Assembly (NCBI GenBank): GCA_019694165.1
Contig: JAIBCL010000003.1
Coordinates: forward strand, 248,001-312,000
Source: Verrucomicrobiaceae bacterium
GTDB lineage: Bacteria; Verrucomicrobiota; Verrucomicrobiia; Verrucomicrobiales; Verrucomicrobiaceae
DNA length: 64,000 nt
Direction of reading: 5' to 3'
Within the stretch, counting starts at the first letter, position 1. The number at the start of each line of letters is the position of its first letter. This document shows positions 58,139-64,000 of the stretch, piece after piece. The translations under genes were made by a program, and so were the position numbers. Below the pieces are notes generated by a model that saw only the letters and a program-made list of their open reading frames with translations, searched no databases and was not told the origin of the DNA.

Positions 58139-58249
58139 AGTATTCAGTTTTCAGTGGTCAGTGTTCAGTGGCGCAAGCGTTGGCGGTGGCATCTGCGTGT
58201 TCGGCTCAGCGACTGAATACTGAATACTGAAAACTGAACACTGAATACT
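58139..58249. repeat. Inverted array of 7-bp NNTCAGT repeats
   Basis: AGTATTCAGT (58139-58148) pairs with ACTGAATACT (58240-58249). The left arm reads ATTCAGT, TTTCAGT, GGTCAGT, GTTCAGT: four consecutive heptamers. The right arm, read inverted, is ATTCAGT, GTTCAGT, TTTCAGT, ATTCAGT, ATTCAGT. A unique ~42-bp centre separates them. The element fills the gap between the DUF1800 gene start and the next gene's stop. Confidence 0.85.
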
Positions 58250-58891: not shown

Positions 58892-59143
58892 ATGAACGCC
58901 ACGACCTTGGATGCTCTGATGTCGCCCGTAGCGGGTTGCCTCGACGAACCGTCGTTGAAGGCGCTTGTGCAATTGCGTGCCTCACCCGAAGCTGTAGCCC
59001 GTGTAGAGTGGCTGGCGGAACGAGCGAATGAGGGTGAACTGACCGCGGAACAACGCGCAGAATACGAAAGCTGCGTTCTCTTCGCCAACTTCCTCGGCGT
59101 CCTACAGTCGAAGGCTCGTCGCAAAATCAATGGAGCGGTCTGA
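58892..59143 (+). CDS. Small protein coupled to HNH nuclease
   Basis: 83 residues (MNATTLDALMSPVAGCLDEP), mostly helical and acidic, ending QSKARRKINGAV. It overlaps the HNH gene by one base (TGATG). Small helical proteins with a RxxxLxxRANEGxLTxEE-like text (here ERANEGELTAEQRAEYES) are often found just upstream of HNH genes in Planctomycetes and Cyanobacteria. It may be a partner or antitoxin of the nuclease; this is positional inference. Confidence 0.7.
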   Translation: MNATTLDALMSPVAGCLDEPSLKALVQLRASPEAVARVEWLAERANEGELTAEQRAEYESCVLFANFLGVLQSKARRKINGAV

Positions 59144-59541
59144 TGGGGGTCTCGGCTGCAGCTCGTCGCTGGGTGCGAGAGGTCTCGCTGGGACGCTGCG
59201 AGTACTGTCGCATGGCCGAAGCTTGGGAACCCTACTTCCACTACCATGTGGAGCACATCATCGCCCGGCAACATGGCGGAAATGATGATCGGTCGAATCT
59301 CGCTTTCTCATGCAACCACTGCAATCTGCTGAAGGGTCCAAACATATCGAGCATCGACCCTGACACAGGGAAAATGACGGCTCTCTTCCATCCGCGAAGC
59401 CAAGAGTGGAAAGACCATTTCGTGCGCGAGGGTGGCCTCATCATCGGTCGGACTGGGATCGGGCGGACGACGGTTTTTCTGTTGCAGATGAATGCGCCGC
59501 ATCGCGTGGAACTCCGAATAGAGAATGGCGATGAGTTCTAG
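59143..59541 (+). CDS. HNH endonuclease
   Basis: 132 residues. Zinc-binding Cys pairs CEYC and CNHC frame the HNH core VEHIIARQHGGNDDRSNLAF. The short size and lack of other domains suggest a free-standing homing-type or defence-type nuclease. Coupled translationally to the small helical protein upstream. Nothing around it looks like an intron, intein or phage. Confidence 0.88.
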   Translation: MGVSAAARRWVREVSLGRCEYCRMAEAWEPYFHYHVEHIIARQHGGNDDRSNLAFSCNHCNLLKGPNISSIDPDTGKMTALFHPRSQEWKDHFVREGGLIIGRTGIGRTTVFLLQMNAPHRVELRIENGDEF

Positions 59542-60944: not shown

Positions 60945-63914
60945 CTACTTCAGGCTCTTGATGAACAAAATCAGCGACTGGATCTGCGACTCGTTCAGGA
61001 TGCCGTTGTAGATCGGCATGCCGGCGTCGAATTTCTCGAAGCCCTTCACGACTTTCGCGGGCGGATTCACGATGGACTCGTGCAGGTAGGCTTCGTCGGC
61101 CTTCACCTTGAGCGGTGTCTTCACGTTTTCGCCGTTCGCTTTGCCGATCTCGCGCTCGGTGCCGAAGATGCCGCGCCAGCTCGGGCCGACTTTGCCGACT
61201 GTCGTGCCATCCGTGCTGTGGCAGGCCATGCAGCCGACCATTTGATAAAGCCGCTGGCCTTCCTCGACGGTCGGTTTTGCCAGCGCCACGTCGGCGGTCT
61301 TGCGCGGTGTGAGATCGACCTTGATGTCGCCGAAGCCTTCCTTCACCGGATCAAAGGTCATCAGGTCCCACGGCGAGAAGTAGGCCGTGTTCTCCGCCTT
61401 CAAGCCCGCCTCGCTCTTCAATCCCCAGCCGATGCGCATTTGATGCACGCCCGCTTTCATGTCGGGAATGCCGACCAGCACGCTCATGCCGTCTTTGCTC
61501 AAATAAGCGCTGCTCGCGTTCACCCATTCCTGGCCAGGCGTGCCGTCGAGCTTGAGATGCGGCGAGCCGTACTCAGCCGTGCGCTTGTAGTTCCAGCGCT
61601 CGGCGCTGTAGCTTGCGGGATCGGGGGCCAGCTTCGCGTCGAGCTTCGCATTGAAGCGGAGAAGCAGGCCTTTGTCCGTCGGCGTGCATTCCTTCAGCAT
61701 CACGCGCTCGCCGCCGGTGTAGCGGATGCGCGCGAGGCCGCTGATCTTCTTCGCGGTGGTGCCCCAGATTTGGAACCCGACCACATAGAGCTGTCCATCC
61801 GCGGGATTCACATGCGCATTGAGCGGGCCGAAATCGAAGTCGCGCCAGAAGCTCATCACCGTCGCCTGCGGGCGCTGGAAGCGCGTGTTCATGAGCACGC
61901 GGAAAAGCTCGGGCCGGTTGTAGCCGACGAGCATGAACTCATCGTTCAGCGGCCCCATCTTCGCGTCCGTCAGCCACACCTGCGACACCGAACTCGGATT
62001 CACCGGATGCGGGATCCACGTCAGCGGCTCGGTGATCGTCTCGGGATACTGCTCCTTCGGCGCGATGGTCGGCAGGTGACCGTAGAAATGGTGATCGCTG
62101 ATGATGTGCAGCGGCGTGCTCGGTACATAGTTCCCCTGCTGATCACTCGCGGTGACGAGCCCCGTCTTCGGATGCACACCGAGGAAAGGCTGGCGGAGGC
62201 CATAGCCGATCACCTCAAAGCTCTTCCCATCCGGCGCGACCTTGATCACCGTGCCATTGTGCTTCCCGAACGTCGTGCCCTCCTGCCCGCCTTTGGAAAT
62301 GTAAAGCTCACCCTTCGGCCCCAGCTTCATCGAGTTCGGGAACTCCCGCGTCTCCGCCGTCTGCGCGAAGAGATTGCAGAACATCTCGTAGCGATCGCAC
62401 TCGCCGTCGCCGTTCGTGTCGAGGAGTTTCCAGATGCCGTTGCGGTCGAAGACGAGGATGTCAGAGGTCAGAGAGGCAGAGATCAGAGGATCAGAAGTCG
62501 GACCCTCAGATTTCGAAGCAGCCGACGAATCGCCACTCGTTCCCGAACGAGATTGCTGACCTCTGAGGCTCTGACGCTCTGACTTCTGTGGCTCTGACCC
62601 CTGACCTCTGACCACAATGCTCATCGGCTCATGCAGCCCGCTGGCAAACCGCTTCCACTTCACCTCCTTCAAGTCGCTCACGAGGCCGGAGATCAGCCAC
62701 ACATCGCCATCCATCGTCACACCGACGGCGTTACCCTTGTCATCAAGGAAGTCGATGTCCGCGAGACGCACGTTGCGCTTCCACGGATTCTCCAGCGGCA
62801 GCGGGATGTCATCGAGGACGTAGGACGGCGCTTTGGCGTGTTCGAGTTCCGCGTGGGTGGTGATGGCTTGGGGCCAGTGCTGGAGCAGCTTTGTTCCACC
62901 CACCTGGCCTCTGGCAGTGTTCAAAAGTCGGTTTCGCTCGTCCGGAGGAAGAAGTCTTCCAACCGCACCTTTCGGTAAGTCACGGTGATGTGCAGGAAAA
63001 TCTGTGACGGAGACGCCGCACGCCCACTTCATGTCCACAGATGGCAAAACTTGAAACCGGCACCCCTTATCGAATGCTCGTTTGATCGGCAGACCTGTCC
63101 TGCCGTCACTCTGCCCAATCACCGATTGGTCTGGAAAGCCCTCGCGATAGAACATGGTTTCGTTGTGTCTTGCCACACACCGGTCCCAAATTAGCACTGC
63201 GGAATCGGCGTCCACATCCGCGCTAATCAATTCCAACACCTGAACCCCATTCACGGAATAGTCGAGTACTGTGGCAGGTCCATTAACAACGAGGCCATTG
63301 AACCTTCCGATGCCGGATTGAATCGGCCCCTTCCCCACCTCCTCCTTGCTCGGCCCTGAATCACGCGGATCGGTGAAGCTCGGTTTGTCGCCGACCTGCC
63401 AGCCCGGATAGATGCCGTTTGCCAGCCACACCTTGCCAATCGGCTTCGGCAGATCGTCCTGACCGTCTTTGGTCTTCTGGCCGGCGATGTGATACGAGCC
63501 GGGCGCGAGGCCGTCGGGCGTGACGGGTGGTTTTCCTTCCTCGCCCTCCCATATGCAGGCGATGCGGAGAAGATCGGTGTCGAAGCAGGCCCAGAGATTG
63601 TGACCGAGATTCAGGATGATGCCGCGCGGCGTGAGGTTGTCCTTCGGGAACCCTTCGCCGACATCGCGTGCATCGAGCACGCTGCTGAAGAACGGGAAAT
63701 CTTTCTCATAAAAATCGCCCCACGGTGATGGCGGCGGCGGAGGTGGCACAGGCGGCTTCGTTTTGGCCTTCACCTTCACGGGCTTTTCGGCTCCGGCTTC
63801 CTTCTTGCCGCCCGCCTTCTTCCCATCCGCCGGCTTGTCACCCGCCGCGCGGACTGGCGAAACGAAAACGGACAGCCCAAGCAAGGCGGAGAAGATGGTG
63901 GCGCGGCGGATCAT
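60945..63914 (-). CDS. Secreted cytochrome c / sorbosone-dehydrogenase-like propeller protein with an in-frame repeat insertion
   Basis: 989 residues from MIRRATIFSALLGLSVFVSPVRAAG (signal peptide) and a Lys/Ala/Pro linker. The region SPWGDFYEKDFPFFSSVLDA resembles the DUF6797-type family. The middle (about 480-830) is propeller-like, with KLGPKGELYISKGGQEGTTF and GYGLRQPFLGVHPKTGLV, as in glucose/sorbosone dehydrogenase-type proteins. A C-terminal cytochrome c has VGCMACHSTDGTTVGKVGPS and GMPIYNGILNESQIQ. A 51-residue Ser/Gly/Glu-rich insert comes from the 153-bp element at 62460-62612. It is likely a periplasmic electron-transfer protein. Confidence 0.88.
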   Translation of the reverse strand: MIRRATIFSALLGLSVFVSPVRAAGDKPADGKKAGGKKEAGAEKPVKVKAKTKPPVPPPPPPSPWGDFYEKDFPFFSSVLDARDVGEGFPKDNLTPRGIILNLGHNLWACFDTDLLRIACIWEGEEGKPPVTPDGLAPGSYHIAGQKTKDGQDDLPKPIGKVWLANGIYPGWQVGDKPSFTDPRDSGPSKEEVGKGPIQSGIGRFNGLVVNGPATVLDYSVNGVQVLELISADVDADSAVLIWDRCVARHNETMFYREGFPDQSVIGQSDGRTGLPIKRAFDKGCRFQVLPSVDMKWACGVSVTDFPAHHRDLPKGAVGRLLPPDERNRLLNTARGQVGGTKLLQHWPQAITTHAELEHAKAPSYVLDDIPLPLENPWKRNVRLADIDFLDDKGNAVGVTMDGDVWLISGLVSDLKEVKWKRFASGLHEPMSIVVRGQGSEPQKSERQSLRGQQSRSGTSGDSSAASKSEGPTSDPLISASLTSDILVFDRNGIWKLLDTNGDGECDRYEMFCNLFAQTAETREFPNSMKLGPKGELYISKGGQEGTTFGKHNGTVIKVAPDGKSFEVIGYGLRQPFLGVHPKTGLVTASDQQGNYVPSTPLHIISDHHFYGHLPTIAPKEQYPETITEPLTWIPHPVNPSSVSQVWLTDAKMGPLNDEFMLVGYNRPELFRVLMNTRFQRPQATVMSFWRDFDFGPLNAHVNPADGQLYVVGFQIWGTTAKKISGLARIRYTGGERVMLKECTPTDKGLLLRFNAKLDAKLAPDPASYSAERWNYKRTAEYGSPHLKLDGTPGQEWVNASSAYLSKDGMSVLVGIPDMKAGVHQMRIGWGLKSEAGLKAENTAYFSPWDLMTFDPVKEGFGDIKVDLTPRKTADVALAKPTVEEGQRLYQMVGCMACHSTDGTTVGKVGPSWRGIFGTEREIGKANGENVKTPLKVKADEAYLHESIVNPPAKVVKGFEKFDAGMPIYNGILNESQIQSLILFIKSLK
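62460..62612 (-). repeat. Palindromic TCAGAG-repeat element inserted in-frame in a coding sequence
   Basis: GTCAGAGGTCAG (62460-62471) pairs perfectly with CTGACCTCTGAC (62601-62612). Both arms are runs of seven- to eight-base TCAGAG-type repeats, and the centre holds CTCGTTC/GAACGAG (62536-62551). The element is 153 bp, exactly 51 codons, and contains no stop in the gene's frame. It splits the family text between SIVV and ILVFDRNG. Confidence 0.85.
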
Positions 63915-64000
63915 GTGGTGATGGAACGCTACTGCTGCGGCTGGAATTTCCGCCGTCAACGTGGGGCGAGCCGCTGGCTTGCCCGCAATGGGAACGCGCC

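Follow-up and report, generated by a model that had tools for sequence, protein, structure and literature searches.

An in-frame palindromic insert in a Verrucomicrobiaceae cytochrome c gene probably belongs to a set of dispersed, largely lineage-specific heptanucleotide arrays

Among the simple repeats of bacteria, heptanucleotide repeats form a recognised yet unexplained class. Of all long simple repeats, heptamers are the commonest in most genomes, as Mrazek et al. are quoted in PMC4679880, and arrays of TAACTGA have been described in Beggiatoaceae (PMC4679880). GGGNATC arrays occur in Xanthomonas and Nostoc and are under-represented in coding DNA (PMC4692102), which also cites heptamers of Calothrix. 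The P6b stem-loop of the tRNA-Leu(UAA) intron in cyanobacteria is a hairpin built from degenerate heptanucleotide repeats that pair with each other (PMC3488679). Palindromes within translated genes are likewise on record: Rickettsia palindromic elements (RPEs) are in-frame palindromes whose copies within a family share both the whole sequence and the encoded peptide (PMC10969869), and the coding palindromes of Nematomorpha mitochondria place inverted repeats inside translated genes (PMC6649704). The literature that we searched describes no heptamer palindromes in coding DNA of Verrucomicrobia.

Here, we analyzed such an insert in the window, a whole stretch of 64,000 nucleotides from a Verrucomicrobiaceae bacterium (contig JAIBCL010000003.1; genome G000). 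The features concerned, numbered from the first letter of the window, are as follows.

60945..63959, minus strand: host gene, encoding a 1004-aa protein (DUF6797 / propeller-like / cytochrome c)
62460..62612, minus strand: in-frame palindromic heptamer-repeat insert, 51 codons, missing in 28 of 50 homologues
62556..62612, minus strand: gene-5' arm of the insert, GTCAGAG units mostly 7-8 nt apart, reading VRGQGSEPQKSERQSLRGQ
62511..62555, minus strand: spacer, with a small hairpin at 62536-62551, single-copy in the genome
62460..62510, minus strand: gene-3' arm, complementary TCTGA units 7 or 8 nt apart, reading SEGPTSDPLISASLTSD
58143..58249, no strand: second inverted heptamer-array pair of the window, TTCAGTG ... 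CACTGAA, intergenic, with a spacer of about 40 bp and lying between two minus-strand ORFs

The host protein carries DUF6797, a partial match to DUF7133 (propeller-like) and a C-terminal cytochrome c domain, and its homologues in the family are mostly 61-83% identical to it over the best segment. A small HNH endonuclease gene (PF01844) lies near the cytochrome gene, at 59143-59541. In the AlphaFold model, the propeller-like part has low confidence (mean pLDDT 40.5); locally, strands are modelled at residues 59-64 and 111-117, with the insert between them as coil (pLDDT 25-32). This low-confidence model agrees weakly with the insert forming a loop between strands. The homologue alignments seemed to have another gap, at residues ~247-360; this proved to be a fast-evolving region and not an insert.

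A sequence-only reading of this DNA had described a palindromic element with terminal inverted repeats, internal TCAGAG arms and a central hairpin, 153 bp long and free of stops. Its coordinates are correct, and each of these features was recovered. The 12-bp ends are perfect inverted repeats (62460-62471, GTCAGAGGTCAG; 62601-62612, CTGACCTCTGAC), and a 39-nt arm pair (62457-62495 / 62570-62608) is complementary at 77%. The TCAGAG units form two inverted arms and are spaced 7-8 nt apart, so that the periodicity is loose, with 7- and 8-nt steps mixed (lag-7 p = 0.02). The central hairpin reads CTCGTT-CCCG-AACGAG (62536-62551). Folded as single-stranded DNA, the insert has a z of -5.2, with none of 200 dinucleotide shuffles folding equally well, and a slightly shorter stretch of it reaches z = -6.3. 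Its 153 nt make exactly 51 codons, with no stop in the gene frame, whereas each of the remaining five frames holds two to three. Pure CTCTGAC heptamers in the gene-3' arm would give a stop in every frame; the spacing of 7 or 8 nt between TCTGA units keeps TGA out of the gene frame, and SEGPTSDPLISASLTSD has no in-frame TGA.

The 51 codons had been equated with 51 added residues. The codon count stands, whereas the net gain over empty homologues is smaller: in place of the 53 residues of the window, these have VR-GSD-IL, and the outermost repeat letters of the insert overlap the conserved V-R and S-D codons, which by sequence comparison puts the gain at about 46 residues (138 nt). No target-site duplication was visible when the insert ends were compared with empty homologues, at a divergence that could hide a very short one. 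Reading the window insert also revealed no GTAG/GGAG-tagged hairpin of 20-40 nt (REP/RAYT type).

We then compared this turn across 50 distinct homologues including the window, drawn from 31 named Verrucomicrobiaceae loci and further relatives. In 28 of them the two strands are joined by a tight turn of the shortest form, for example VVR-GSD-ILVFDR or VAR-KGE-LFVFDR. One of these insert-free forms is L060, probably a contig of the congener G001 to judge from matching coordinates. An orthologue alignment had been set beforehand as a check, a domain conserved in all orthologues being the outcome that would speak against an insertion; because 28 of 50 homologues are without the insert, the claim of an in-frame palindromic insertion without counterpart in most orthologues survives it. 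Extra residues at the same turn occur in 21 other homologues, 15 of which carry in-frame inserts of heptamer type, with these units:

GAACATT inserts: L035, L049, L050, L052
GAGATGG inserts: L034, L037, L039, L051, L056
AATCAGG inserts: L045, L053, L058
GTCAAGG insert: L061
AAGATTC insert: L065
NNNNGGA insert: L041

The inserts of L033, L054, L064 and L079 at that site (128 aa in L054) were considered and rejected as heptamer arrays. At L054:4973-6562, the roughly 120 extra residues at the propeller turn are not heptameric and look coiled-coil-like by eye.

Including the window, 14 of the 16 heptamer-type inserts show lag-7 periodicity at p <= 0.02, the exceptions being L053 and L061. Five fold strongly (z <= -3; window, L034, L051, L035 and L049), and those of L039, L050 and L058 fold no better than shuffles. 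Other genera carry different heptamer arrays in this one loop, which a reading of the window by itself could not reveal, and the amino-acid sequences differ entirely between heptamer flavours. On the gene tree, a quick reconstruction with a weak backbone on which gains and losses are not separable, the presence of inserts needs at least 13 changes, nine of them forced by starred branches; neighbours of which one is filled and the other empty are, for example, L056/L055, L061/L057 and L053/L044. The close relatives L039 and L051 differ by 45 nt in frame, corresponding to the spacer plus the inverted arm, which indicates that an arm can be gained or lost whole.

To see what recurs elsewhere, the genome of the window was searched with the insert. 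Many short matches were returned, nearly all to the arms, and no credible second copy of the spacer or of the whole element was found in G000. The matching places are TCAGAG arrays with 7-nt steps in both orientations, and the pattern CAGAGGTCAGAGGTCAG gave 64 matches at <=2 mismatches against 2 for the reversed control. We grouped the TCAGAG arrays into about 18 separate loci, both coding and intergenic. Thus, the terminal repeats were found elsewhere, inside and outside genes, as the sequence-only reading had proposed to check, but its repeated 153-bp element was not: only the heptamer arms recur. We read 13 loci in detail. Four of them (the window insert, C32, C56 and C22:128738) lie within apparent genes and keep the frame; most of the others are intergenic, several directly before an apparent start codon.

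A census of periods 4-13 in an 844-kb sample of G000 showed period 7 as the sole clear peak, with 12 arrays against 0-1 at each other period. Further period-7 heptamers in this sample include TTCAGTG, GAATGCC and ATTCGTC. An inverted partner lies near 9 of 52 period-7 arrays, and the palindrome is thus optional rather than the rule. In the array at L021:1502-1635, GGTCAGA is followed by many successive GGTCGGA units without variation, a single variant of the unit having been amplified within an older array. From these observations, the insert is probably made up of two degenerate arrays of a heptanucleotide (consensus TCAGAGG) that face each other as inverted copies across a unique spacer. The observation made from the sequence alone is confirmed and its interpretation partly supported.

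The flavour of the insert tends to be one that is abundant in the host genome. Three flavours were counted per megabase in 36 genomes of the family, the counts including the insert itself. G000 ranks first of 36 for GTCAGAG; for GAACATT, G030 ranks first and G026 sixth; for GAGATGG, G014 ranks first, G035 ninth and G027 twenty-fifth. All six genomes carry the matching insert in this gene, and the rank sum of insert flavour against genome abundance gave p = 0.002 by permutation. The link is not strict, as flavours are not exclusive: G027 has a CCATCTC insert and ranks 25th of 36 for that pattern. The match between flavour and genome indicates that arrays at different loci of one genome are related, for which slippage at each locus alone is insufficient.

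Similar arrays were found in linkers of other proteins. The C32 gene linker has eight TCAGARG-type units in G000 and five in the congener G001, a difference of 21 nt, or exactly three units; no smaller number of whole units would preserve the frame. This change in copy number by whole units is a finding for the C32 locus. In the C56 gene, of PSD1/DUF1549 type as inferred from its sequence, GTCAGAG units occupy the linker before NPIDAF in G000; in other genera this linker holds GGTTCTC (L214), a GATTTGA palindrome (L218, L219) or AAATCCA (L236), and others have no array. With these two linkers, the pattern extends beyond a single gene.

Taken together, the account that we consider likely as a whole is as follows. 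The insert would belong to the dispersed heptamer arrays of G000, whose consensus is largely lineage-specific, and would be translated as a flexible loop at a predicted beta-turn of the propeller-like domain. New loci would receive their arrays by seeding in trans; purely local slippage would leave a heptamer shared by unrelated loci unexplained, and no seeding machinery was found. Once in place, arrays may lengthen or shorten through slippage by 7 nt at a time, as the 21-nt difference at C32 suggests, and the inverted partner may arise by replication template switching across the hairpin. Slippage and template switching are deduced here from end states. Whatever the flavour, the two arms of a locus match each other, as expected if one was copied locally from its partner. 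Arrays within genes would survive only where they are in frame, free of stops and placed at a tolerant turn or linker, a filter that is visible as a pattern in the data. Within this account, the likeliest reading of the insert is that repeat DNA has been tolerated and has become new protein sequence, and we claim no function for it.

For Verrucomicrobiaceae as a whole, a stronger version is possible and offered tentatively: an active, trans-acting process, via some polymerase or recombination route, may write heptamer arrays characteristic of each genome into many loci, in many cases together with an inverted copy, repeatedly adding in-frame loops at the same positions of conserved proteins. 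As the engine of the arrays, RAYT/Y1 transposases were considered and rejected, being present nearly everywhere in numbers unrelated to array abundance (16 Y1 transposases in G000, 7 in G014 and 39 in G012).

One point against this account is that a single ancestral array drifting in place could look like repeated insertion. An array would have been present at the loop from the start, its unit drifting in each lineage and the whole often being lost, so that the flavours reflect turnover in place. The position is indeed identical in all carriers, some flavours are common to clades, and units do morph within single arrays, as at C22:378083-378154 (L022, in the window's genome), where one array shifts stepwise from ATCACCG to ATCACTG to ACCTCTG. 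However, the 28 homologues with the minimal turn hold no remnant, several empty and filled sisters are close, and drift would need to proceed in concert across the genome for the flavour to match it. We regard this explanation as rather unlikely.

Also unlikely, and somewhat more so, is a MITE- or RPE-like element, that is, a 153-bp palindrome transposed as a unit via its terminal inverted repeats and in frame by chance. The perfect 12-bp repeats, the absence from relatives and the in-frame insertion are what such an element would present, and G014 offers a further resemblance. In that genome, 17 of 25 GGAGATG arrays lie immediately after a GC hairpin (GGCGNC-loop-GNCGCC), compared with 7% of random positions, as in an interspersed composite element. 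In this composite (stretches L162-L181), the stem bases vary in matched pairs, and several arrays are followed on their far side by another hairpin. A similar GC hairpin opens the inserts of L034, L039, L051 and L056, and none of the G014 kind was seen at the G000 loci read. These data support a hairpin-plus-array unit dispersed in the G014 lineage, which leaves a mobile-element origin open. For the window insert, however, the spacer and whole element lack a second copy in G000, the arms are tandem heptamers, no target-site duplication is visible, and Y1 transposase counts do not track array abundance. That the insert is a selected feature, a DNA or mRNA hairpin or a disordered Ser/Gly/Glu loop that slows translation, binds a regulator or docks a partner, is very improbable: the fold is strong, the frame open throughout and one loop repeatedly occupied, but most homologues lack an insert, three inserts fold no better than shuffles, and the amino-acid sequences are wholly different between flavours.

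Recurrent in-frame arrays in the same loops of conserved proteins, with a consensus that tends to follow the host genome, provide a natural experiment on how heptanucleotide repeats spread, by local slippage or by seeding in trans, and also on the origin of new protein segments from repeat DNA. They also carry a warning that Ser/Gly/Gln/Glu-rich inserts of this kind in proteins of Verrucomicrobia are repeat DNA, not conserved domains.

Among known systems, MITEs share terminal inverted repeats with the insert but not, as far as is visible here, a target-site duplication. The coding palindromes of Nematomorpha differ in that both arms encode conserved protein, whereas here the palindrome is an extra, non-conserved loop. 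Resemblance to RPEs, the closest precedent for palindromes in frame, had been proposed and holds for size (about 150 bp), palindromic structure and in-frame position inside unrelated genes; it does not extend to membership in a family of ~150-bp copies, since the heptamer alone is common to the loci, and the insert is not an RPE. The nearest structural parallel is P6b, which likewise has paired degenerate heptamers, changes in repeat number and distinct repeat classes; by this analogy, the insert resembles a P6b heptamer hairpin set in a protein loop under reading-frame constraint instead of a loop of catalytic intron RNA. With dispersed heptanucleotide repeats (LSSR), the arrays share 7-nt units at many loci, on both strands, mostly intergenic and with a genome- or lineage-specific consensus; tandem 7-nt units in the genome arrays and loci in excess of chance, the marks of an LSSR/STRR-like class, were both found. 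Unlike published LSSR, which are reported mainly from between genes, those described here are degenerate, often form inverted pairs and stand in frame at recurrent loops of conserved genes. Dispersed heptamer repeats are known; what stands out here is that units differing by lineage are found in frame, again and again, in the same loops.
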